Assembly: GCA_945875545.1 (NCBI GenBank)
Contig: CAMCKZ010000014.1
Location: 1 to 47,843 of the forward strand
DNA length: 47,843 nucleotides
Direction: 5' to 3'
Source of the DNA: Polyangium aurulentum
Lineage (GTDB): Bacteria; Myxococcota_A; Polyangia; Polyangiales; Polyangiaceae
The notes below the pieces were generated by a model. The model made no database searches and was not told where the DNA came from. It saw nothing but the letters and a program-made list of their open reading frames with translations. Position numbers and translations under genes: made by a program. Position 1 is the first letter of the stretch. Each line of letters starts with the position of its first letter. Positions 7,638 to 47,843 of this stretch are shown one piece after another.

Positions 7638-8848
7638 ACGCCCGACGACTCGGTGCGCCGTGCCGGGTCCGCATCTGTACGGGCATCTGTATGGGCATCT
7701 GTGCGGGTATCTGTACGGGCATCTGTACGGGCGTCTGTACGGGAAGCGTTGGTGGGGCCGGCGGACGGACCTGCCGCCCCGAGGGACGCGCGAACGTATT
7801 CCACTATCTTGCCAACGTAAGACGCCAGCGGTGGACACGAAAGATGCGGAGCGCACACCCGCGCGTTTTGGTCGTCGAAAACCGCGTCGCCCACGAGGGC
7901 ATCGAGGAGGGAACGCGGACTGCCGCCGAGGCGTTCAAAACCCGGGGCTCGCACGAGGGCCGTCGCCAGATGAGAAGCGAGGGTGCCTTGATTCACGCGA
8001 CGACCGGCCGCTTGCGCGATGAGTTCAAACACCGCGCGCGAGGGCAGCGGATCGCGATCGACGATGTGCAGCGTCTTGCTTATGGACCCCGTATGCTTAC
8101 CGGCTGCGTATGCGACCTGGGCGACGAAGTCGATGGGGACCAAGTTGAGGCGTGCATCGGAGCGGCCAAAACTCGGCAGGCGAAGCTCCGGGGGTGCGGT
8201 CACAAAGAGGAGGAAAAGTCCAAAGCTCCCGAGGCGGCGATCGATCTCGCCGGTGACGGAATCGCCCACGACGATGGACGGCCGTACGACGGTGATGGGA
8301 AGGGAGCCCATCTGCGCGCGGAGCATTTTTTCGGCCCGGGCGTTGGCCTCCACCAAGCCGTCGCGCAGGTGCTGCCCGACATCCAAGTCGTCTTCGAAAA
8401 ATCGACCGTCGCGATCGCCGTAAACGAGCGCCGTGGAGTGCGCGATCACGCGCGAACGTTTGGCAGTGGCGCGCGCGAGTTCCAAGACTTCGTCGGTGGC
8501 GCGCAACACCTCTTCAACCGCGAGCTTGCGGCCCGCATTGGACGACGCGAGCGCGTGGCAAAGGTGAATACGCGAAGTCTCGGCGGCGAGCGCACGCCAG
8601 CGCTGCCCCGAAAGCCCGAGGTCGATGGATCGCGAGTCGCCCTCGATGACCTCGACGCGCGCAGCTTGGGCCCTGTCGAGGGACTCCATCATGGCGTTCG
8701 TGCCCTCGGCCCGGCCGCGCGGAACCAGAGCAAAAACGCGCGCAGCATCGTCGTCGCGGAGGGCTTGATCAAGAACGGCTCGCGCTTCTTGAGACGGAAA
8801 ACCTGTGATCAAAATCGCGTCGGACGGGGGCTTGGCAGCTCGGGTCAT
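7634..8848 (-). CDS. SDR-like NAD(P)-binding protein with TDAR-repeat tail
   Basis: This 404-residue protein looks like an extended or thioester-reductase-like SDR (NAD_binding_4 type). A Rossmann start DAILITGFPSQEA (about 11-23) is followed by SRVIAHSTALVYGD, ITVVRPSIVVGDSVTGEI and LNLVPIDFVAQVAY, which are typical of that group. The usual YxxxK active-site pair seems absent: the equivalent place reads DGLVEANARAEKML, so it may bind a nucleotide without being a normal dehydrogenase. The C terminus has a charged tail of TDAR-like tetrapeptides encoded by a 12-bp tandem repeat. Start 8848 (MTRAAKPP) overlaps the upstream gene by ATGA and the stop overlaps the DUF4911 start, giving a coupled three-gene operon. 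Substrate is unknown. Confidence 0.7.
   Translation of the reverse strand: MTRAAKPPSDAILITGFPSQEARAVLDQALRDDDAARVFALVPRGRAEGTNAMMESLDRAQAARVEVIEGDSRSIDLGLSGQRWRALAAETSRIHLCHALASSNAGRKLAVEEVLRATDEVLELARATAKRSRVIAHSTALVYGDRDGRFFEDDLDVGQHLRDGLVEANARAEKMLRAQMGSLPITVVRPSIVVGDSVTGEIDRRLGSFGLFLLFVTAPPELRLPSFGRSDARLNLVPIDFVAQVAYAAGKHTGSISKTLHIVDRDPLPSRAVFELIAQAAGRRVNQGTLASHLATALVRAPGFERLGGSPRSLLDALVGDAVFDDQNARVCAPHLSCPPLASYVGKIVEYVRASLGAAGPSAGPTNASRTDARTDARTDTRTDAHTDARTDADPARRTESSGV
7671..7742. repeat. Six 12-bp tandem repeats
   Basis: Six head-to-tail copies of GCATCTGTACGG occupy 7671-7742 with single-base variants (GTAT, GTGC, GTATCT, GCGTCT). On the minus strand they encode RTDARTDARTDTRTDAHTDA at the C terminus of the SDR-like protein. 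As 12 is a multiple of 3, copy-number change would alter tail length without a frameshift. Confidence 0.95.
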
Positions 8849-9807
8849 GGGGCGCAACGTACCCCTTTCGCAAAAGTTTCGCAGCGCTTCAGGCCCACCG
8901 CACCGCAGGGAAAAGAGATCGGCGTCGCGCCGTAGCAGCCCTTGATGATGGCGCCCTCGCACCGAAAGCCATCGACGCCGCACAGGGGCCCAGCGTCGCT
9001 TTTCGGAGGCTTGCACCGCCCGAAGGCGCCGGCGCGTTCCACGCACGTTTGCCCTGCTTTCGCGCAATCAATGCCGACTTCTTTGCCCGCGAAACATCCG
9101 ACCGCGGTGTCGCCGAGGCAGCGATCTTGCTTGCAGACTGCACCTTTCGGAACGCACGCCGCACCCTCCGCGCCCTCTTCGCAAACGAGGTCGAGGACCG
9201 CGCAATCGACGGACACAAGAAAGCCTTTATCGCACCCAACTTTTTTGGACCCGAGGCACTTGGGCTTCGCGCCATCGGCCTCGGTGCAGCGATCCAAGAC
9301 GCAAACGGCCTCGCCATCTCGCACGCGGCAGTGTTCGCCGCCGCGTGGGCAATCGCGAACCGCGAGAACTTTTTCTTTCGCGCAGATGACCGCGCGGCCG
9401 TCGGTGTCGCACATGCCGCTGGACCCGGACTTGCCCCGCCCGACGCACGCTTCGGCCTTGACGCCGCGCAAAAGGCAATCGCGAAGCACGGTGCATGAAG
9501 TGGCGTGAAGCCCGCATTCGCGCACGGAAAGAGGCACCCCCAAAAACGCTGGAGACCCGAGAGCGGGCGCGTAACGCTTCACACAACTCGCGAAATCGTC
9601 GGCGAGAACCGAGGGCGAAACGGGCTGATTGGTGCACCCGGAAAGGAGCGCGCACAGCGAGGTGACGTCATCTAAAACGGGGGGCGAGACGCGATGGATT
9701 TCTGCCTCCGCTTCGGCCTCGGCGGCCGGCGCGGACGATGCGGAGAACGAGAGCGCAAGGGAAACTAACCCCAGCGAAGTCAAAGAAAAAAAACGTCGAC
9801 CCATCAT
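8845..9807 (-). CDS. Secreted Cys-rich protein, function unknown
   Basis: This protein of about 320 residues starts with a signal peptide (MMGRRFFSLTSLGLVSLALS, cleavage likely near SSAPAAEA), followed by an acidic Ala-Glu repeat and many short Cys pairs such as GSKKVGCDKGFLVSVDC and AGKEVGIDCAKAGQTC. The spaced cysteines suggest disulfide-bonded, EGF-like mini-modules at the cell surface. Two adjacent ATGs (9807, 9804) are possible starts; a weak CTGGA ribosome site precedes them. I do not recognise a named family. It heads the operon: its stop overlaps the SDR-like gene start by ATGA. Confidence 0.65.
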   Translation of the reverse strand: MMGRRFFSLTSLGLVSLALSFSASSAPAAEAEAEAEIHRVSPPVLDDVTSLCALLSGCTNQPVSPSVLADDFASCVKRYAPALGSPAFLGVPLSVRECGLHATSCTVLRDCLLRGVKAEACVGRGKSGSSGMCDTDGRAVICAKEKVLAVRDCPRGGEHCRVRDGEAVCVLDRCTEADGAKPKCLGSKKVGCDKGFLVSVDCAVLDLVCEEGAEGAACVPKGAVCKQDRCLGDTAVGCFAGKEVGIDCAKAGQTCVERAGAFGRCKPPKSDAGPLCGVDGFRCEGAIIKGCYGATPISFPCGAVGLKRCETFAKGVRCAP

Positions 9808-9973
9808 GAAAATCCAGTGGCAAGGCCAATGCATGAGAGAGGCAATCCGTCTCATTCCCACGCGGCAGATTATCTCAACTTAAGCACGGATGGCCAATTC
9901 CTGCGAGTCAAAGCCTGCTATCGGGCTGAGGGGAAATTCGCGCCTCGGGAAGGCCGCACCAGGAGCCGCTCTC

Positions 9974-10531
9974 ATGATCGACGACGTTCTCAAAGACCTG
10001 CAGTCAAGCACTGCAAAAGCCCACGAAGCGTGCAAACGAGACTTGACGAAATTGCGCGCGGGTCGCGCAAGCGCGGACATGATTGCGGGTGTGCGCGTCG
10101 ACTATTACGGAACCCCCACGCCCCTCACCCAGATGGCGAACATCTCCGTTCCCGAGCCGCGCATGCTCACGGCAAAACCCTGGGACAAGGGCGTGCTGAA
10201 AGCCGTCGAAAAAGCCATCCGCGAGGCTGGATTGGGGCTGAATCCCTCGATCGACGGCGACCTCGTGCGCATTCCGATTCCGGCGCTCACCGAAGATCGT
10301 CGCAAAGAATTCGTGAAGATCGCGCGAAAACACGGCGAAGAATGCAAGGTCGTGATCCGCAAGGCCCGCCACGATGCCATCGACATGCTCGCAGAGATCA
10401 AGGACGGCGGCGGCGCAAGTGAAGACGAAGTCGACCGTGGGAAAAAGAAGGTCGAAGATTTGGTTAGCGAGGGTGTGAAACACGTGGATACCCTTGTAAC
10501 TGCTAAGGAAAAAGATATCCTCGACATCTAG
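9974..10531 (+). CDS. frr: Ribosome recycling factor
   Basis: This 185-residue cytosolic factor splits post-termination ribosomes together with EF-G. The sequence is a full-length RRF: LTKLRAGRASADMIAGVRVDYYG near the N terminus, PLTQMANISVPEPRML, and the C-terminal helical segment VEDLVSEGVKHVDTLVTAKE. The ATG at 9974 (MIDDV) is chosen because of the AGGAG at 9961 and because family similarity starts there; an in-frame upstream ATG at 9890 lacks support. The usual neighbours (tsf, pyrH) are not in the window. Four GCCCA repeats follow at 10551-10570. Confidence 0.97.
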   Translation: MIDDVLKDLQSSTAKAHEACKRDLTKLRAGRASADMIAGVRVDYYGTPTPLTQMANISVPEPRMLTAKPWDKGVLKAVEKAIREAGLGLNPSIDGDLVRIPIPALTEDRRKEFVKIARKHGEECKVVIRKARHDAIDMLAEIKDGGGASEDEVDRGKKKVEDLVSEGVKHVDTLVTAKEKDILDI

Positions 10532-10550
10532 GCAGCCCGCGTTCACGAGC

Positions 10551-10575
10551 GCCCAGCCCAGCCCAGCCCAGCCCC
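10551..10575. repeat. GCCCA tandem repeat
   Basis: Four copies of GCCCA (10551-10570) followed by GCCCC lie in the 178-bp gap between frr and the phosphatase gene. This is probably a slippage repeat. No terminator or clear promoter was found around it. Confidence 0.8.
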
Positions 10576-10709
10576 TTGAGCCATCGATCGCGCGGCCTTT
10601 TAGCACACTTCTTGACTCGCCCCGCCCACGATGAAACGGTGCAAGTGAACTCTCTTCTCGGCCGCTTTCGCCACCCCCACGAAAGCGCCTTTTCAAGGAA
10701 AACTCCACG

Positions 10710-18430: not shown

Positions 18431-18507
18431 GTCCCCATCGTCTAGTTGGCCCAGGACAGCGGCTTTTCACGCCGCGAACAGGGGTTCGAATCCCCTTGGG
18501 GACGCCA
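18431..18507 (+). tRNA. tRNA-Glu (anticodon TTC)
   Basis: A full cloverleaf is visible. Acceptor GTCCCCA (18431-18437) pairs with TGGGGAC (18497-18503). The anticodon arm is GCGGC-TTTTCAC-GCCGC with anticodon TTC. The T arm is AGGGG-TTCGAAT-CCCCT. Discriminator G is followed by an encoded CCA (18505-18507). It reads GAA/GAG. A strong terminator stands 44 bp downstream. Confidence 0.97.
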
Positions 18508-18550: not shown

Positions 18551-18592
18551 CAAACGACGTAGCTCTTTCGGGGCTACGTCGTTTGTGTTTTT
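18551..18592 (+). terminator. Rho-independent terminator after tRNA-Glu
   Basis: A perfect 13-bp stem, CAAACGACGTAGC (18551-18563) with GCTACGTCGTTTG (18573-18585), closes a 9-base loop and is followed by TGTTTTT. It is one of the two strongest intrinsic terminators seen in the window and isolates the tRNA from the ABC operon that starts 25 bp later. Confidence 0.9.
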
Positions 18593-18625
18593 CGGGTTCA
18601 TGACGAAACCCCCGCGATGAACCCG
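18593..18625 (+). promoter_or_regulatory. Inverted repeat covering the ABC permease start
   Basis: CGGGTTCAT (18593-18601) and ATGAACCCG (18617-18625) form a perfect 9-bp inverted repeat with a 15-base spacer. The right arm contains the ATG of the permease gene. As DNA it could be an operator; as RNA it would hide the start codon. It lies between the tRNA terminator and the importer operon, where a regulatory site is expected, but function is inferred only. Confidence 0.4.
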
Positions 18626-19681
18626 CATGCAGGCCTCGCAGAAATGGCTGCAATCTACACAGAACAAGCCCCTTCACGATGGTCGCTCGCAGCAGGTCCC
18701 CTTGACCGTCGCGGGGTTCGCCGCAGTCTTGCGCTCACATTTTTTTTCGTCGCGTTGCTCGTCACGCTGCTGGCGACTTCTGCGGCGGCCTCCCCGGCCT
18801 TGTCCGTCGCGCCTTCTGCGATTTTGGCGCTCCACGTGCAGCGCATGGTGGCCGCTTTTGTGGCGGGTTCGGCCCTCGCCGTCGCGGGCGTTCTTGCCCA
18901 GGCCGTGACGGGAAATCCCCTCGCCGACCCGGGTATTCTCGGCACCAGCGGCGGCTCTTTTTTGGGTGCCAAACTGGGCATTGTTCTCACCCTCGCGCTG
19001 CCCCTCTCGCTTCCCCTTCGCGCCGGCGCGTCGGTCGTCGGAGCACTCATCGGAGCGGCGCTATCTCTCGCTATTTTGCTCGGCGCCACACGGCGATCGA
19101 CCCCGCTCGAATTTCTGCTCACGGGCTTCATCCTCTCCATGGCCTTCTCGGGGGTCTCCACGGTTGTCACCGCGATGGCGCAAGAATTCCCAGCACTTGG
19201 GCGCGCTCTCGTGATGTTTGCCATGGGCGATCTCGCCGGGGCCGGGTGGCCTGAACTGCGCGTGGCCGCCCCCTTGGCTGTGGGCTGCATCTCGGGCGCG
19301 ATGCTCCGCCGCCGTGACCTCGACCTCTTGTCACTCGGGAGCGACGAGGCGCAGTCGCTTGGGCTTTCTGTGCAGTCTGCACGTTACGCCATTCTTGGGT
19401 GGGTTGCCTGCGGCACCACGGCGGCCGTCGTGCTTGCCGGGCAACTCGCCTTCGTGGGGCTCCTCGGTCCGCACCTGGCCCGGCGATTTGTGGGCGGAAC
19501 CCATCGGCTCTTGGTGCCCGCGGCCGCCTTTTTTGGCGGGATCATCGTTCTCGCAAGCGATCGCGTGGCCGTCGTTTTGGCGGAGCTCGCCTCGGTGCCC
19601 ACGGGCGCTGTGACAACCCTCGCGGGCGCCCCATTTTTCTTCTTCTTGCTGCGAAGGCGGTTGTCCGATGGTCCGAACTGA
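18617..19681 (+). CDS. FecCD/BtuC-type ABC transporter permease
   Basis: This 354-residue inner-membrane permease belongs to the type II importer family for iron-siderophores, haem or cobalamin. Family signatures are QAVTGNPLADPGILGTSGGS and the late block FVGLLGPHLARRFVGGTHRLLVPA, with about nine or ten membrane helices. Start at 18617 is uncertain; no ribosome site is clear and an inverted repeat overlaps it, and an ATG at 18644 is possible. It overlaps the ATPase gene by 14 bp and is the first gene of a permease-ATPase-binding protein operon. Downstream COG0523 and CDF genes suggest a metal or cobalamin substrate. Confidence 0.9.
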   Translation: MNPHAGLAEMAAIYTEQAPSRWSLAAGPLDRRGVRRSLALTFFFVALLVTLLATSAAASPALSVAPSAILALHVQRMVAAFVAGSALAVAGVLAQAVTGNPLADPGILGTSGGSFLGAKLGIVLTLALPLSLPLRAGASVVGALIGAALSLAILLGATRRSTPLEFLLTGFILSMAFSGVSTVVTAMAQEFPALGRALVMFAMGDLAGAGWPELRVAAPLAVGCISGAMLRRRDLDLLSLGSDEAQSLGLSVQSARYAILGWVACGTTAAVVLAGQLAFVGLLGPHLARRFVGGTHRLLVPAAAFFGGIIVLASDRVAVVLAELASVPTGAVTTLAGAPFFFFLLRRRLSDGPN

Positions 19682-20429
19682 CGACCTTCGTTTCGACTTT
19701 CATGAGGTTCGCCGCGGCTCCGTCTCGGTGCTTCGGCAAGTGCGTGCGTGTTGCAAAGCGGGTACTCTGCACGCAGTTGTTGGTCCCAACGGCGCTGGAA
19801 AATCGACACTGCTCCGGGCGCTTGCGGGTCTCGATCCATCGACCGGTTCCATTCTGCTGGGCGAGCAGACCTTGCACGATGCGGGTCCGGAGATTCGGGC
19901 ACGGGCCCTCGCTTGGGTGCCGCAGGTTTCGTCCATTCCCGAGGGCATCAGCGTCGCGCACAGTGTTTCGTTGGCACGGGCTTTTCGAGGCGAATCCCGC
20001 GCTACGGTGCACGAGATGGCACACCGGGCGCTGGTGCGCTGCGGCATCGAAGACTTGGCTGCCCGCACATTTTCCACGCTGTCCGCGGGCCAACGGCAAC
20101 GCGCGGCGATTGCGCGGGCCCTCGCCACAGAGGCGCCCGTGGTCCTTCTCGACGAACCGTTTTCGGCGCTTGATCTCCGCGCTGGGCTTCTACTGGACGG
20201 CCTTCTCCAAGACCTGGCGCGCACGGGATCCATTGTACTCGTGGTCCTCCACGACCTCGGACACGCAGCCCGAATTGCAGACTGCATTCATGTGCTGGCG
20301 GGCGGCACCCTCGTCGCCTCGGGCCCTCCCGATGAGGCGTTGTCCGCCGCCATTCTCACCAAAGTATGGGGGGTCCATACTCGCAGCGGCACCCCATGCG
20401 GCCCCTTTGAACTCGCGGGCCCGCCATGA
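19668..20429 (+). CDS. ABC transporter ATPase (FepC/BtuD type)
   Basis: This 253-residue ATPase energises the FecCD-type importer. Walker A GPNGAGKST is at residues 39-47, followed by the Q-loop region WVPQVSSIPEG, the signature LSAGQRQRAAIARAL, Walker B VVLLDEPFSALD and the switch His in VVLHDLGHAA. It overlaps the permease gene by 14 bp and the binding-protein gene by ATGA, so all three are translated as one operon on the inner face of the membrane. Confidence 0.93.
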   Translation: MVRTDDLRFDFHEVRRGSVSVLRQVRACCKAGTLHAVVGPNGAGKSTLLRALAGLDPSTGSILLGEQTLHDAGPEIRARALAWVPQVSSIPEGISVAHSVSLARAFRGESRATVHEMAHRALVRCGIEDLAARTFSTLSAGQRQRAAIARALATEAPVVLLDEPFSALDLRAGLLLDGLLQDLARTGSIVLVVLHDLGHAARIADCIHVLAGGTLVASGPPDEALSAAILTKVWGVHTRSGTPCGPFELAGPP

Positions 20430-21349
20430 AAGCAGGCCCCGAACAACTGCTTGCACTCTGCACGCTTTTCTTTTCGCTACTGGGCACGCGCGCGTTCATG
20501 CCGTCGGCGGTTAATCCCACGGTTTCCGCAGACAAACCCGCGGCCACCGTGACCGACGCGTCGGGCACCGTGTTCACAAGCGGGCCAAGGCGCTGCATCG
20601 CTTCCGCCAGCACCGTCGCGGATCGCTTGGTGTCGGCCATCGCGGGGCCTCAGTTTCTTTGCGCCGTGGCGTCGCCGGAAGCTTGCGTGCGTCCGTGGTG
20701 CCGCGAATTCCAAGGAAAAAAGCGCATCAAGAGCCTCGATAACCTGAGCGCCCTCGCAGACCTGCATGCGGACCTCATACTCACGACGAATCCGGGATCA
20801 CCGGCCCGGCTGATGCGCCTTCGCGAGGCCGATTTGCCCGTTTTCGACCTGGGGCCCGCCACGGGGCTCGAGAGCCTCCGCTCCGCAACGACCGCCCTCG
20901 GCGCCGTGCTGGGCCGGCAAAGCCGCGCAGAGGCCTTCTGGAGGCGATTCTCGAGGCGTATGGCCACCGTGGCCGACGACACAAGGAGCCCCAGGCCCAC
21001 GGCGCTCTTCTTGGGGCTCTACGGGTCGCTCTTGGCCGGCGGCGCGCGCGACACGAGCTGGCACGACGTCATCGAGGCCGCGGGCTTGACCGATGCGGCG
21101 AGCGATCGCGTGGGCTGGCCGAGCTGGACGGCCATCGATGTAGCGACGCGCCATCCGGACTACATCGTGACGGAAACGAACATGGGTGCGCTTCTTTGCG
21201 CCCGTGAGGGCGTTGCCTCAACGCCGGCGTGCCGCCACGGTCACGTCATCGAAATCGACGGCGACATTCTTTCCGATCCCGGGCTCACGATGCTTGACGC
21301 CGCCGAGGCCATCGCCGACGGCATCGCGCCTCTTTCCGTCACCCCGTGA
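20426..21349 (+). CDS. ABC transporter substrate-binding protein (BtuF/FecB type)
   Basis: This 307-residue exported protein captures the ligand for the importer. An N-terminal hydrophobic stretch ([17 protein letters not shown]) acts as a signal sequence. The body has the class III binding-protein pattern: [37 protein letters not shown], and [16 protein letters not shown]. It carries four Cys in its middle ([15 protein letters not shown]). Ligand cannot be told from sequence. Start overlaps the ATPase stop by ATGA. The COG0523 gene follows 19 bp after its stop. Confidence 0.85.
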
Positions 21350-21368
21350 CGTGTTAGCGCACGCGCGC

Positions 21369-22823
21369 ATGACGACCCGAGGCAAGATTCCCGTTACCGT
21401 CCTCACCGGCTTTCTTGGGGCAGGCAAAACCACGCTTTTGAACCGTATTCTCACAGAGAATCACGGCCTGCGCATTGCCGTCATCGAGAATGAATTCGGC
21501 GAGATCAACGTGGATCAGCAGCTCGTGATTGGCGTCGACGAAGAGATCTTCGAGATGAGCAATGGGTGCGTCTGCTGCACCGTGCGTGGCGATCTCATTC
21601 GTGTTCTTTCGAACTTGAGCAAACGCAAAGGCAAGATCGATCGCATCGTTCTCGAGACCACGGGGATGGCCGACCCGGGGCCCGTTGCGCAAACATTCTT
21701 CGTCGACGAAGACGTGCGCGAGGCTTTTTTCCTCGACGGCATCGTCACCCTCATCGACGCAAAACACGTCAGCGCTCGCCTCGACGACACGAGAGAGGCC
21801 CGCGAACAGGTCGCGTACGCCGACCTTCTCGTGCTCAACAAATGCGATCTCCTTGGGGGCGTCGAGCTCGACGCGGTGGAAAACAGACTTCGCCGCATCA
21901 ACGCCATGGCGCACATCGTGCGCTGCGAACGCGGGCAAATACCGATCAAGGCGGTTCTCGATTTGGGAGGCTTTGATCTCGATCGGGCCATGGCCGTCAA
22001 GCCATCGTTTCTCGAAGAGGAGTACCCATTTGAATGGGGTGCGAGCTTCGAAGTGTCAGCAGATTCCCTGCTGATTTCGTTCAATGGTGCCAAGGCCCAC
22101 CACGATCACAGTCATGCCGCGCACGGCGATCACGGCCATCATGAGCACGCCGATCACGGCCATCACGAGCACGCCGATCACGGCCATCATGAGCACGCCG
22201 ATCACGCTCACGAGCATCACGTTCACGCGCCCCATGACCACGCTCGATTGATTGTTCTGCCTCTTGCTCAGGGGAGCGCCGATCCTTTGGTGACGACCGC
22301 ACGCGAGGCCATGATTCGTTTCAACGATGCGCCGGGCGCGGCACCCACGGTGGGTTGCCCCATCACGGTGCACCCGCACGAGACCGTGACGATGGCCCTG
22401 CCCGCGCGCGGCATCTATGCAATCTACACGGAACCTTGCGGCGACGAGCTCGGCCTGGTTCTGAGCGCAAACAGCGAAGCGTTGGCTTGGGGTCAGGTGA
22501 GGCATTTTCGCCACGAACACACCCACGCCGAAGCGGTTTTTTCCATGGCTTTCGCCCACGACGGCAACCTCGACCAAACGGCGTTCGACGCTTGGATGAG
22601 CGATTTCTTGCGCGACCACGGTGCCAATCTTTATCGACTCAAAGGCATTTTCGCGTTTCAAAATGTGGAGGAGCGCGTCGTCCTTCAAGCCGTGCACATG
22701 GTCACCGACACCCGAAGCTTGGGCCCGTGGGGAACCTCCGCACGCCGCAGCGAACTCGTGCTCATCGGCAAAGATTTGCCTCGGGCCGCGATCGAAAAAA
22801 GCCTTCGTTCTTTCGCCCTGTAG
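21369..22823 (+). CDS. COG0523 (CobW-family) GTPase with His-rich segment
   Basis: This 484-residue G3E GTPase belongs to COG0523, whose members act as metal chaperones or insertases for zinc, cobalt or nitrile hydratase metals. Seen: Walker [10 protein letters not shown] (14-22), [10 protein letters not shown], the metal-binding CxCC as NGCVCC (Cys67, 69, 70), and LNKCDLL as the guanine-specifying motif. A His-rich insert lies around residues 244-290 with three 24-bp repeats coding DHGHHEHA. A CobW C-terminal domain follows (residues about 370-480). The ATG at 21369 is chosen by family alignment. It lies 19 bp after the ABC operon and is convergent with the CDF exporter gene, which supports a role in metal supply. 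Confidence 0.92.
22128..22199. repeat. Three 24-bp repeats coding His-rich octapeptides
   Basis: GATCACGGCCATCATGAGCA plus CGCC occurs three times in tandem at 22128-22151, 22152-22175 (one T to C change) and 22176-22199. It encodes DHGHHEHA in the CobW-family protein. The length of the His-rich metal-binding segment can vary by recombination between copies. Confidence 0.95.
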
Positions 22824-22846
22824 GTCGCCGTTTTCCAGGCGTCCAC

Positions 22847-23938
22847 CTAGTGCCGGTGCCCGTGCCCGTGGTGGTCATGATCCGCCGCAGACCCATGCCC
22901 CGCAGGCCCGGGAGTCGGCCCTTGAGTCACGACCTTTGCGTGCTCGACGTGGCACGGGCGAAGCTCGATGGTTAGGTGATTTACAGCGGTTTCATGCAAC
23001 ACCACCCGTCGACACATTTCGATGTCCACCGGTTTGTGCGCCGCCAACGCAACGACGCAGCACACCTCGCTCGATCCCATTTCCCACACGTGAAGATCGA
23101 CGACCTCACCGGCGCTCGCTTCTTCCAGCACCTGCCGAAGTCGGTCGAGGTCGATGCGTTCCGGGACCATGTCCAAAAGCGGGCGCGAAGCTTGCGATAG
23201 GAGAACCACCGCCCAGCGGGCGATAACCACGGCACCGACCACGCCCATGAGCGGATCGAGTAGAAGAAAACCAGTCTTTTGCCCGACAGCCAACGCCACA
23301 ATCGCAAGCACACTCGTCAGGGCGTCTGCGACAACATGGAGGTACGCAGCCTGCATGTTGTGATCGTGCGAGAGGGCTGATTTAACGGCCGGCGGAGGGG
23401 CGCCCTCGTCGTGCTCGCCATGCGGCGCGTGACCGTGCGCGTGGCCATGCCCGTGACCGTGCGCGTGACCGTGATCGGACCCCTGCAGGAGCAAAGCGCT
23501 CACGACGTTCACGGCGAGACCGAGGCTCGCCACGGGAATTGCCTGAGCAAAGTCGATCGCAACCGGGTGCAGCAGGCGCACGACGGACTCGACAAGAAGC
23601 CACACCGCGGCCAGGAGCAACAGCACCGCGTTCGTAAAACCGGCCAGCGCGTAGATCTTGCCGGGGCCAAAACTAAAGCGTTCACGCGTACCATAACTAC
23701 GCGCATACCAATACGCTACAACAGTTAGCGTAAGTGCTCCGACATGCGTGGCCATGTGCCACCCGTCGGCGACGAGCGCCATCGAGTGGGTCAGCGTGCC
23801 GTAGGTAATTTCACCGACGGACGTCAGAAAAGTCAGCAAAACTACGGCCCGGGTTTTGGCCTCGGCGGAACCCACCACGGGCCTCGGGTGCTGAGGGGGC
23901 TCGTGGGGATCAAAGGCGAGAGGCGTTTCAGAAGCCAT
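22847..23938 (-). CDS. dmeF: CDF-family metal cation exporter (DmeF-like)
   Basis: This 363-residue inner-membrane protein has six predicted membrane helices and a cytosolic C-terminal domain, and exports divalent cations in exchange for protons. TM2 reads VADGWHMATHVGAL, where the second site residue is His rather than the Asp of zinc CDFs, as in DmeF-type cobalt/nickel exporters. TM5 has HVVADALTS, the usual HxxxD. Two His-rich stretches occur: GHAHGHGHGHAHGHAPHGEH in the loop before TM5 and a His-rich C terminus. The gene converges on the COG0523 GTPase, 23 bp away, so exporter and chaperone are neighbours. Metal specificity is inferred. Confidence 0.88.
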   Translation of the reverse strand: MASETPLAFDPHEPPQHPRPVVGSAEAKTRAVVLLTFLTSVGEITYGTLTHSMALVADGWHMATHVGALTLTVVAYWYARSYGTRERFSFGPGKIYALAGFTNAVLLLLAAVWLLVESVVRLLHPVAIDFAQAIPVASLGLAVNVVSALLLQGSDHGHAHGHGHGHAHGHAPHGEHDEGAPPPAVKSALSHDHNMQAAYLHVVADALTSVLAIVALAVGQKTGFLLLDPLMGVVGAVVIARWAVVLLSQASRPLLDMVPERIDLDRLRQVLEEASAGEVVDLHVWEMGSSEVCCVVALAAHKPVDIEMCRRVVLHETAVNHLTIELRPCHVEHAKVVTQGPTPGPAGHGSAADHDHHGHGHRH

Positions 23939-24573: not shown

Positions 24574-24692
24574 CTCGGCAAATCGTCCAACGCGATGTTG
24601 GCCTGGCGCGAGACCACACAGAAATCAGGTGTTTGCGCGCGGCCGAAGCCATGTAGACTGGTGCGATATCGACCCTTGAACGTCGCAATACG

Positions 24693-44184: not shown

Positions 44185-47100
44185 ATGTCCGCAAGCATTC
44201 GTCAGCAGGTTCCCATCGCCGTTGTGGGCGTTAGCGCTCTCTTTCCAGGTTCGAACGACGCGCGCGGATTTTGGGCCGATATTCTCGCCGGCACCGACCT
44301 CATCACCGACGTGCCGTCCACCCATTGGCTCGTGGAAGACTACTACGACCCGAACCCCAAGGCGCAGGACAAAACGTACAGCAAGCGCGGCGGATTTCTT
44401 TCGCCCATCGACTTCGACCCTTTGGAGTTTGGCGTCCCGCCGACCATTGTGCCAGCCACCGATTCCGCGCAAATCTTGGCACTCATTTTGGCGCAAAAGG
44501 TTCTCGACGACGCCGCCCAAGGCCAGTTCGCGAAGATGGACCGGGAGCGCATCAGCGTTCTCCTGGGCGTCACTTCAGCCCAGGAATTGCTGGGGAACAT
44601 GGTGAGCCGCCTCCAAAAGCCCGTGTGGCTGAAGGCCCTGCGCGAGAGCGGAATTCCCGAAACCGAGGCGCAGGCGATTTGCGAGCGAATTGCGAGTAAT
44701 TACGTGCCGTGGCAGGAGTCGTCGTTCCCTGGGCTCCTCGGAAACGTCGTGGCAGGCCGCATTGCGAACCGCTTCGACCTGCGCGGTACCAACGCCGTAA
44801 CAGACGCTGCGTGTGCGAGTTCCCTCGCCGCCGTGTCCATGGGCATCAACGAGCTCCAGCTCGGTCAGTCGGACCTCGTCATCACCGGTGGCGTCGACGC
44901 GATGAACGACATTTTCATGTACATGTGTTTCAGCAAAACACCGGCGCTTTCGCCGACGGGCGACTGCCGCCCGTTTTCCGACGGCGCCGACGGCACCCTC
45001 CTCGGCGAGGGAATTGCCATGGTGGCACTGAAGCGCTTGGCCGACGCCGAACGCGACGGCGACCGGGTTTACGCAGTGATTAAGGGCGTCGGTTCCGCCT
45101 CCGACGGCCGCGCCAACAGCGTTTACGCGCCTCTCCCCGAGGGACAAGCACGTTCCCTTCGGCGCGCGTACGAGGTCGCGGGCTACGGCGCTGAAACGGT
45201 CGAACTCGTGGAGGCCCACGGCACGGGCACCAAAGCCGGTGACGCCGCGGAATTTGCTGGGCTCCAGCTGGCATTTGGCGAGACCAAACGCGCCGATGCC
45301 CAATGGTGTGCCCTCGGCACGGTGAAGTCCCAGATTGGCCACACAAAGGCCGCGGCGGGCGCGGCGGGCCTCTTCAAGGCCATCATGGCATTGCACCACA
45401 AAGTGCTGCCACCGACCATTAAAGTTTCGCGACCAAACCCGAAACTTGAGATTGAGAAGAGCCCATTTTATCTTAATACGGAAAGCCGTCCGTGGATTCG
45501 CGACGCGGCCCACCCCCGGCGCGCGTCGGTGTCGAGTTTCGGGTTCGGCGGGAGCAATTTCCACGTCGCGCTCGAAGAGTACGTACCGTCGGTCAGCACA
45601 GGAAAACACGCATGGAAGTTGCGCACGTCGCCCACAGAACTCGTTCTTTTGCAGGCCGCGACACCCGCCGAGCTGGTCGTCCGATGCCGCGAACTCGCGG
45701 GCAAAGCCGGTGACTTGGGTCACTTGGCGCGGAGCACCCAAGAGGCCTTTACGTTTGGAGCCTATGCCGGCGTGCGTTTGTGTCTTATTGCCAGCTCGCT
45801 CTCGGATTTGTGCACAAAGCTGAACCAAGCGGCGGCCGCGATTGAAAAGTCGCCCGGCGCGAACTTCTCGACCCCCACGGGCACGCATTACGCCGCCGGC
45901 GCCGTCGATGCGGGCGAAGTGGCCTTTCTGTTTCCCGGTCAAGGCAGTCAATACGTGGGTATGGGCGCGGCTGTCGCCATGGCTTTTGCCAGCGCGCGCT
46001 CCGTGTGGGACGACGCGGCGGGTGAGCTTTTCGACGGCGAAAGACTGCACGACGTGGTCTTTCCGCGGCCCGTCTTTACGGACGAAGACCGCGCCGCCCA
46101 GACCGGGAAACTGACACGAACCGAGTGGGCACAGCCCGCCCTTGGGGTCCACAGCCGCGCCCTCGCGGAAGTCCTGCATTCCGTCGGCATTCGGCCTTCG
46201 TGTGTGGCGGGCCACAGTTTCGGCGAAGTTTCCGCCCTCCACGAAGCGGGTGCCATGAGCGCGGAGACCCTGCGCCGGGTGGCCCGTCGGCGCGGAGAAC
46301 TGATGCGCGACGCGTCCGCGACCCCGGGTTCCATGGTTGCCGTCGCCAAGTCGCTGGCGGAAGTTACCGCGTTGCTAACGGAATCGAAGGCGAAGGTCGT
46401 CGTGGCCAACCACAATGCACCAACACAAGTTGTGCTTGCCGGTGCAACCATCGAGATCGCCAGTTTCGAGGCATTTTTGGCGTCAAAGGGCGTCACCGCC
46501 AAGCGACTTCCCGTGGCCACGGCGTTCCACAGCGAGCTCGTCGCGGGTTCTCGCGAGCCTTTCCTCGCGTTTTTGAAGGGCGTGGCGGTTTCATCGCCGG
46601 CCATCGACGTGTACGGCAATGCCACGGCGGCACCGTACGAACGAGACCCGGTACAAGTACGAAATGCGTTGGTGGCCCAGTTGGCCGAACCCGTTCGTTT
46701 TGTCGACCAAATCGAGGCCATGTACGCGCGCGGAGTTCGCACGTTTGTGGAGGTTGGCGCCGGGAGCGTTTTGACCGAGCTCGTCGGACGAATCCTCGGC
46801 GAGCGTCCACACCGCGCGGTGTTTCTCGACCGCAAGGGAAAACACGGGGTCACAACGCTGCACGAGGGGCTTGGAAGGCTCGCCATCGCCGGCGTGCCCA
46901 TGAGCCTCGCCGCACTGTGGACCGAGTACGCGCCCGCTTCGCAAAAGCCTGTAAAAAAGCCTGCGATGACCATGGCGATCAGCGGCGCCAACTTCGGAAG
47001 TCCCTACCCGCCGCCCGGTGGTGCCAAAGCGCTTCCGCCGCCCAATCCCCCGCGCCCGGCACCCCAACCGACGCAGGCTGCGCCCGTTCCACCCGCCGCA

Positions 47101-47843
47101 GCCATCACGCCGCTCGCAATAGTCGCACCCGTCGCGCCCGCTCAAGCCATTGAAACAATGAGTAAATTCCCGTCGCCCATGTCCGAAATCCTCGCTTCGC
47201 CGCCCGCGCAGGCCACTCGTGTCGCAACCGCCGCAACCGCCGCCGCAACCGTGGGCGCCCAGGACGGAGGCGCGTGGGTGCACGCGTTTCAGGAAACCCA
47301 GCGTCACACGGCCGAGGCGCACGCATCGTACCAGCAGGCCATGGCGGCCAGCCACATCGCCTTCTTGAAGACCGCGGAGGCCAGCTACGCGGGGCTCACC
47401 GCGCTGCTTCACGGTCGCAGCGGCGTGTCGCCCGCCCCGGTTCTACATCCGCCTGCCCAGTCTTTTTCCTCGGTGCCGGCCCACGTCACGCCACGCCTCG
47501 CGCCGGCGGTCCCGCCTCCCGCGCCAATCGTGCAGGTCGCCGCGCCGTCTCCGGTTTCCGCCCCGATTCCGACCCCAATGGCCGCGCCGCCACGCAGCGC
47601 CGCCGCGCCAGTGGCTGTACCCAACGGGCTGCATCACGCCGCACCCGCCGTGTCCACTCCCGCTGCCGCGCCCGCTGCACACGTCGATTTGCAAGCATTG
47701 ATGATGACCATCGTCGCGGAAAAGACTGGTTATCCGCAGGAGATGCTTGGCACACACATGGAACTCGAGGCCGACCTGGGCATCGATTCCATCAAGCGCG
47801 TCGAGATTCTTTCCGCCATGCGCGAGCGCGCACCGGGCCTGCC
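44185..47843 (+). CDS. pfaA: PfaA-type PUFA synthase (KS-AT-ACP), partial
   Basis: The first 1,219 codons of a multidomain iterative synthase are present; it runs off the right edge. Ketosynthase (about 10-440): Cys210 in DAACASSLA, His345 in EAHGTGT, His386 in IGHTKAAAG. Malonyl/acyl transferase (about 560-860): FLFPGQGSQYVGMG and Ser678 in GHSFGEV. A Pro/Ala-rich linker of about 250 residues follows. The first carrier domain then begins, with phosphopantetheine Ser1202 in LGIDSIKRVE. Active-site residues are intact. Start 44185 has a GAGG site. Family knowledge predicts more ACPs, a KR and other domains further on. It works with PfaD upstream to make long-chain polyunsaturated fatty acids. 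Confidence 0.96.
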   Translation, partial: MSASIRQQVPIAVVGVSALFPGSNDARGFWADILAGTDLITDVPSTHWLVEDYYDPNPKAQDKTYSKRGGFLSPIDFDPLEFGVPPTIVPATDSAQILALILAQKVLDDAAQGQFAKMDRERISVLLGVTSAQELLGNMVSRLQKPVWLKALRESGIPETEAQAICERIASNYVPWQESSFPGLLGNVVAGRIANRFDLRGTNAVTDAACASSLAAVSMGINELQLGQSDLVITGGVDAMNDIFMYMCFSKTPALSPTGDCRPFSDGADGTLLGEGIAMVALKRLADAERDGDRVYAVIKGVGSASDGRANSVYAPLPEGQARSLRRAYEVAGYGAETVELVEAHGTGTKAGDAAEFAGLQLAFGETKRADAQWCALGTVKSQIGHTKAAAGAAGLFKAIMALHHKVLPPTIKVSRPNPKLEIEKSPFYLNTESRPWIRDAAHPRRASVSSFGFGGSNFHVALEEYVPSVSTGKHAWKLRTSPTELVLLQAATPAELVVRCRELAGKAGDLGHLARSTQEAFTFGAYAGVRLCLIASSLSDLCTKLNQAAAAIEKSPGANFSTPTGTHYAAGAVDAGEVAFLFPGQGSQYVGMGAAVAMAFASARSVWDDAAGELFDGERLHDVVFPRPVFTDEDRAAQTGKLTRTEWAQPALGVHSRALAEVLHSVGIRPSCVAGHSFGEVSALHEAGAMSAETLRRVARRRGELMRDASATPGSMVAVAKSLAEVTALLTESKAKVVVANHNAPTQVVLAGATIEIASFEAFLASKGVTAKRLPVATAFHSELVAGSREPFLAFLKGVAVSSPAIDVYGNATAAPYERDPVQVRNALVAQLAEPVRFVDQIEAMYARGVRTFVEVGAGSVLTELVGRILGERPHRAVFLDRKGKHGVTTLHEGLGRLAIAGVPMSLAALWTEYAPASQKPVKKPAMTMAISGANFGSPYPPPGGAKALPPPNPPRPAPQPTQAAPVPPAAAITPLAIVAPVAPAQAIETMSKFPSPMSEILASPPAQATRVATAATAAATVGAQDGGAWVHAFQETQRHTAEAHASYQQAMAASHIAFLKTAEASYAGLTALLHGRSGVSPAPVLHPPAQSFSSVPAHVTPRLAPAVPPPAPIVQVAAPSPVSAPIPTPMAAPPRSAAAPVAVPNGLHHAAPAVSTPAAAPAAHVDLQALMMTIVAEKTGYPQEMLGTHMELEADLGIDSIKRVEILSAMRERAPGL

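Follow-up and report, generated by a model that had tools for sequence, protein, structure and literature searches.

The window analysed here is a 47,843-nucleotide stretch of DNA that makes up an entire contig of a myxobacterium-like genome (G000; 3.5 Mb, 97.5% complete), and positions 18617-23938 of it hold a five-gene import-chaperone-export block. We think it reasonably probable that this block joins an operon for cobalamin import to a zinc/cobalt-allocation pair, formed by a COG0523 GTPase and a convergent exporter of the DmeF type. The computed evidence consists of the gene identities, the operon spacing, conservation in the genus, a riboswitch link of the importer family, and B12-dependent enzymes in a genome without CbiC. 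The B12 uptake part is well supported by context and the chaperone part is supported by clade and motif; functional coupling of the three modules is what we infer.

Organization of the block

All five genes lie at the coordinates of a first-pass annotation, which had placed a FecCD-type importer, a COG0523 GTPase and a convergent cation diffusion facilitator (CDF) together. Gene calls, Pfam matches (all five proteins exceed their cut-offs) and the recurrence of the same order in the sister genome G002 agree with this arrangement. The forward strand carries a BtuC-like FecCD permease (18617..19681; PF01032, 213 bits against a cut-off of 26.5), a BtuD-like ABC ATPase (19668..20429; PF00005, 102 bits), a BtuF-like periplasmic binding protein (20426..21349; PF01497, 61 bits) and a long-form COG0523 (G3E) GTPase (21369..22823; PF02492, 203 bits; PF07683, 76 bits). 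The permease has an alternative ATG start at 18644, and its likeness to the G002 protein (66% identity) starts near residue 32. The permease and ATPase reading frames overlap by 14 bp and those of the ATPase and binding protein by 4 bp. The 19 bp spacer described in the first pass separates the end of the binding-protein stop codon (21349) from the ATG of the GTPase (21369). Judged by this spacing, the four forward genes very likely form one operon and would share an mRNA. The exporter (22847..23938, reverse strand) is convergent with the GTPase, and 23 bp separate the two stops.

The importer and the B12 economy of the genome

The importer contains the BtuCDF gene set, a FecCD permease, an ABC ATPase and a PF01497 binding protein, in a single operon. 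It was compared with 39 related loci outside the genus, several of which are clipped by contig ends and two of which (L171 and L172) encode identical binding proteins that are counted as two. A search of relatives for B12 riboswitches, which the first pass had proposed, was productive: the cobalamin riboswitch RF00174 is present at 15 of the 39 loci. It lies on the same strand, 5′ of BtuB or the permease, at 12 of them (L175, L177, L183, L256, L301, L303, L304, L305, L307, L308, L309 and L317), ahead of a divergent BtuB at two (L315 and L316) and on the opposite strand at one (L164, in G076:C400), so that relatives of the window binding protein are found in riboswitch-led operons. At G076:C126 the row is complete, running from the riboswitch through a TonB receptor (BtuB) and a lipoprotein to the permease, ATPase and binding protein. 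Binding-protein relatives were detected at E <= 0.001 in 69 of 183 genomes of the order, and a three-row profile gave matches at E <= 1e-10 in 92 of 377 phylum genomes. Two binding-protein genes (G074:C10:5991-6794 and G123:C190:4915-5445) have one in-frame TGA apiece.

G000 encodes the B12-dependent enzymes MetH, methylmalonyl-CoA mutase (with MeaB) and IcmF. CbiC was found in none of the three genus genomes (G000 and its same-genus sisters G001, which is 83% complete, and G002), which points to an absence of corrin-ring synthesis in G000. The single riboswitch of G000 is on contig C36, where it is followed by a lipoprotein, a BtuB-like receptor and a second lipoprotein; BtuCDF is not there. 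The window permease is the only PF01032 match in G000, the sole FecCD permease of G002 also lies in the block, and none was found in G001. With no BtuCDF beside the riboswitch-led BtuB and no FecCD permease outside the window, that BtuB has the window importer as its only recognised partner. The window importer is most likely the genome's sole B12 uptake pump, on a search that covered FecCD permeases and not BtuM or ECF-CbrT. Elsewhere in the sister genomes, cobalamin riboswitches at G002:C403:3181-3384 (L257) and G001:C549:8211-8406 (L258) precede conserved lipoprotein-like genes (~490-516 aa).

From its sequence relationships and context, the importer is best read as BtuCDF-like rather than as a metallophore system, and we infer cobalamin as its ligand. 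The first pass had proposed a block for a metal or metal cofactor and left both classes in play. The cobalamin side is favoured by the riboswitches in relatives, the status of the window importer as the only FecCD importer and the absence of CbiC; the metallophore side was rejected, as no biosynthetic genes were seen in the block and the ligand class fits B12 better. Zinc sparing, with MetH replacing the zinc enzyme MetE, was likewise rejected for the genus because PF01717 (MetE-type methionine synthase) is absent from G000, G001 and G002, as it is from G076 and G055; the family is present in G021, G155 and G156. A literature search found no paper on zinc sparing via MetE/MetH and cobalamin.

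A GTPase of the zinc-linked clade and a DmeF-type exporter

By sequence, the GTPase falls in the zinc-linked, WD40-associated COG0523 clade, subfamily 5. In a tree of 54 rows, which left out the long rows L047 and L052 and took in only part of the named loci, the window and G002 proteins lie within a clade of 37 members with support of 100/100, and a WD40 gene is located <=4 kb away in 28 of these 37. The core features of the subfamily, a G3E GTPase core, GCxCC and CobW_C, are all found in the window protein. The CxCC and the His-rich repeat reported in the first pass were both recovered: the GCVCC metal motif occupies residues 66-70 (21564..21578, forward strand), with C67, C69 and C70 invariant in 25 aligned sequences, and Tandem Repeats Finder reports 4.3 copies of a 24-bp unit at 22103..22206 (forward strand). 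An AlphaFold2 model built with 25 sequences has a mean pLDDT of 78, and its closest solved fold is Zn-bound YjiA. The available text of Haas 2009 (PMC2770081) describes this context for subfamily 5, with WD40 genes, znuABC and, in some cases, predicted Zur sites; the subfamily also takes in most of the eukaryotic COG0523 proteins. A WD40 or Zur-type neighbour accompanies several, not all, members of the subfamily; no WD40 gene or Zur-type site adjoins the GTPase in either the window or G002.

The long form arises from ~165 extra residues between the GTPase and CobW_C parts, which are common to relatives labelled as Nannocystis, gamma-proteobacterial and verrucomicrobial. This region (residues ~219-385) has no Pfam match, and in the model confident predicted strands flank a low-confidence His-rich loop; the loop is present in the genus, where it is variable, and in G053, and is absent from G076:C400. 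A true CobW acting in B12 synthesis was considered and rejected: G000, G001 and G002 lack CbiC, the GTPase belongs to a different COG0523 clade, and it scores 159 bits against the CobW model TIGR02475, for which the cut-off is 332.

The exporter is of the DmeF type by curated score (NF033827 equivalog, 342 bits; cut-off 250) and is predicted to export Co(II)/Ni(II). Its two His-rich segments, noted in the first pass, are an inner loop with 12-bp repeats (23425..23473, reverse strand) and the C-terminus. The DmeF cut-off is also passed by the CDFs of G002, G001, L036 (278 bits) and L044 (337 bits); a Brevundimonas CDF that lies beside a COG0523 gene (L066) fails it at 100 bits. The clade of the GTPase and the DmeF match uphold the link of this pair to Zn, Co or Ni that had been drawn from family knowledge. 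A DmeR-type regulator commonly, not universally, adjoins DmeF; between 23938 and 24693 the window contains a single 189-aa open reading frame of no recognised kind and otherwise no strong gene call.

Alternative readings of the block

Several observations weigh against a cobalamin importer merged with a metal-allocation pair. The first group concerns the ligand. The NCBIfam BtuC/BtuD equivalog cut-offs, from models built on other lineages than that of the window, are not reached (146 and 143 bits for BtuC versus 461 and 334); for this reason the importer is claimed to work like BtuCDF and not to be a curated equivalog. The top PDB match of the binding protein by single sequence is 2r79, a haem-type protein, and its family profile places haem binders first and B12 binders next in the PDB without separating them; a single-sequence structure model (pLDDT 37) is too poor for pocket comparison. 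The top NCBIfam scores of the ATPase are to haem, F420-0, FecE and corrinoid ATPases, the highest being the haem model. These matches would suit a haem or siderophore importer. However, all of the scores are below the equivalog cut-offs, the importer family occurs in a riboswitch context, and haem or siderophore genes were not seen in the block, which makes such an importer highly improbable. An RNA-family scan of the window detected no cobalamin riboswitch at the operon itself; a riboswitch at its own operon is not required of every BtuCDF. Finally, a long branch of ~1.0 changes per site separates the importer of the genus from its riboswitch-led relatives, so the importer's ligand may have changed.

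The second group concerns the association of the genes. Their co-location, on which the first pass had made its proposal depend, holds in the genus and is rare outside it. In G002 (L034) the permease, ATPase, binding protein, GTPase and CDF keep their order, orientation and close spacing at 66-69% identity, and in G001 (L037) the CDF and GTPase are kept up to a contig end inside the GTPase. Outside the genus the importer adjoins a COG0523 gene at 1 of the 39 loci, G076:C400 (L164), which also holds a TonB receptor, a lipoprotein, a WD40 gene and a palindrome (described below) near each promoter. A cobalamin riboswitch at this locus (L164:4119-4317, forward strand) points away from the importer and COG0523 gene and precedes small open reading frames on the other strand. 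Both sisters have a TonB receptor beyond the CDF; in G002 a 413-aa protein lies between the two and a Fur-family gene is divergent from the receptor. G000 carries the receptor with its following genes on a separate contig, C148, beside a CtaA/COX15 gene, which implies that the receptor part was relocated either in this lineage or in that of the sisters. The C148 set (L217), which stands beside DmeF in the sisters, comprises the TonB receptor (cut by the contig end), a lipoprotein-like protein and a 418-aa protein, and the latter two have no significant Pfam or NCBIfam family.

This distribution would be expected if the genes for B12 import, zinc chaperoning and cobalt export were functionally unrelated neighbours, kept together only by short divergence time: full co-location is limited to one genus, the block of G002 and G001 includes a TonB receptor operon that G000 has on a different contig, and a common regulatory site was not found. 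Against chance, the GTPase is still close behind the binding protein in G002 at ~67-69% identity, the importer meets COG0523 again at G076:C400, and DmeF adjoins COG0523 in two other arrangements, at L036 (G001) and L044 (G041). We regard chance neighbourhood as unlikely. Importer trees unite G000, G002 and G076:C400 (support 88/95 for the binding protein alone and 90/97 for the three genes, with 807 columns and 36 rows), which hints at a COG0523-linked importer lineage. Branches are long, however, and the separate permease and ATPase trees do not show the grouping; neither does the GTPase tree, which fails to join the window and G002 to G076:C400 and so gives no evidence that importer and GTPase were inherited together.

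The third group concerns regulation. The first pass had supposed that import and export are chosen by opposite transcription, and this was not sustained: the window block yielded neither a riboswitch nor a Zur-like box nor a gene for a regulator, and with no shared regulatory element found, opposite regulation is unsupported. A palindrome, TTGCAAYNNNRTTGCAA, was noticed by eye in the receptor promoter of G001 and G002, where it lies before the receptor in G001 (1 mismatch) and between the Fur-family gene and the receptor in G002 (2 mismatches). With <=2 mismatches it occurs within 250 bp upstream of 14 of 35 COG0523 starts (26 loci, window and relatives) and in 102 of 7000 random windows, a background in which windows near a start were skipped yet kept in the 7000; as the motif was refined on COG0523 loci, the enrichment is partly circular. 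Genome-wide counts are clearly above control in 4 of 12 genomes (G019, G030, G005 and G021); G001 has 8 sites against 4 in the control, both small numbers, and the remaining 7 show no excess. On this evidence the palindrome may be a Zur box. Near a relative of the block's TonB receptor in another genome (L262, G055:C11, receptor at 8542-10599), the palindrome is found upstream, a Fur-family gene lies ~6 kb off and the next gene reads by eye as a ZIP transporter. The window block contains no Zur-like box at <=3 mismatches; the nearest site, at 24683 with 2 mismatches, spans the initiation codon of the gene that follows. G000 has 15 sites against 14 in the control, which is no excess, and only one Fur-family gene was found in it. 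Zur control of the window operon was therefore rejected, and with neither riboswitch nor Zur-like box there, a shared switch is not shown.

The palindrome bears on a further explanation, in which the importer has turned into a chelated-zinc or cobalt-chelate importer like PA2911-PA2914 and the block as a whole serves in zinc scarcity, complete with chaperone and overflow valve. In its favour are the G002 block, with its Fur-family gene, TonB receptor and divergent promoter palindrome, the receptor palindrome of G001, and the nearest grouped importer, G076:C400, which stands beside COG0523 and WD40 genes with promoter palindromes at 2 mismatches. The long importer branch would also fit, and BtuF-like and chelated-zinc binding proteins are described as hard to distinguish in the available part of a review (PMC10393844). 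On the other side, a B12-requiring genome would keep BtuB but have no recognised B12 importer, and the palindrome count and single Fur-family gene of G000 speak against a Zur-type response there. We judge this explanation to be unlikely. Also improbable, in our estimate, is that the BtuCDF lineage of the genus and G076:C400 (the 90/97 grouping) was captured by zinc allocation, in which case co-expression of the COG0523 zinc chaperone with B12 import would raise the supply of zinc and cobalamin jointly for enzymes dependent on both, foremost MetH, with DmeF as a cobalt safety valve and a Zur-like regulator in relatives.

Other features of the window

A tRNA gene at 18431-18504, upstream of the permease, is the sole RNA-family match above its gathering score in the window. 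Just 5′ of the permease, at ~18560-18600, is a hairpin followed by a T-run, which is also present in G002 with altered stem bases and may either terminate the tRNA unit or serve as a leader. A long open frame runs off the contig end at 44185-47841 and is polyketide synthase-like by eye.

Discussion

If this reading of the block is right, B12 would cross the outer membrane through the riboswitch-controlled BtuB and lipoprotein encoded on contig C36; once in the periplasm, it would bind to the BtuF-like protein of the window. The BtuCD-like permease and ATPase would then pump it inward, toward MetH, methylmalonyl-CoA mutase and IcmF. The GTP-driven COG0523 chaperone may allot Zn(II), or Co(II) instead, to client proteins, and the convergent DmeF would drain surplus Co(II)/Ni(II).

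The uptake genes resemble the BtuB-BtuCDF systems of Escherichia coli and of Bacteroides (BtuBG; available part of PMC10404256) in having the same permease, ATPase and binding protein, with a riboswitch-led BtuB and lipoprotein elsewhere in G000. They differ in that the window BtuCDF is separated from btuB and its riboswitch and shares an operon with a COG0523 gene. As described in the same text, BtuG is a propeller lipoprotein that caps BtuB in Bacteroides; the lipoprotein beside BtuB, as at G076:C126, resembles BtuG by position and by eye only. Set against subfamily 5 as it appears in the available text of PMC2770081, the window GTPase shares the WD40-linked clade, GCxCC, the GTPase motifs and CobW_C, but lacks an adjacent WD40 gene, ZnuABC or Zur-type site and is a long form with a His loop encoded by 24-bp repeats.

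The exporter pair has its closest counterpart in Cupriavidus metallidurans, where, according to the available part of PMC11340326, mutants place COG0523 proteins, the ZIP importer ZupT and DmeF in joint, zinc-dependent control of cobalt. Common to that ZupT-CobW2-CobW3-DmeF network and the window is a COG0523 protein with a His-rich loop beside a DmeF exporter. The link there is one of mutant phenotype and involves the ZIP-type ZupT, whereas here it is one of gene neighbours and involves a BtuCDF-like importer. PA2911-PA2914 of Pseudomonas aeruginosa, as presented in the available part of PMC10393844, combines a chelated-ion ABC importer with a TonB receptor, as does the G002 island; Zur control is reported there and none was seen at the window operon. 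The nearest published remark, from the same part of that review, concerns BtuF-like binding proteins: one with a Zur box predicted at its gene may carry zinc or cobalt in complexed form. Our literature search, judged mostly by title and abstract opening, found no paper on a COG0523 gene within a BtuCDF operon.

The individual parts of the block are known and ordinary; their combination is unusual, and the purpose proposed for it is provisional. The clients and metals of COG0523 proteins are unsettled and ‘cobW’ names are frequently wrong; a zinc-clade GTPase that shares an operon with a B12 importer, where CbiC is absent from the genome, illustrates that a cobalamin context need not mean CobW. 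The palindrome TTGCAAYNNNRTTGCAA offers a candidate Zur-type site for this bacterial group, and the block itself is a concrete case in which to look for a cobalamin enzyme among the clients of a COG0523 chaperone.

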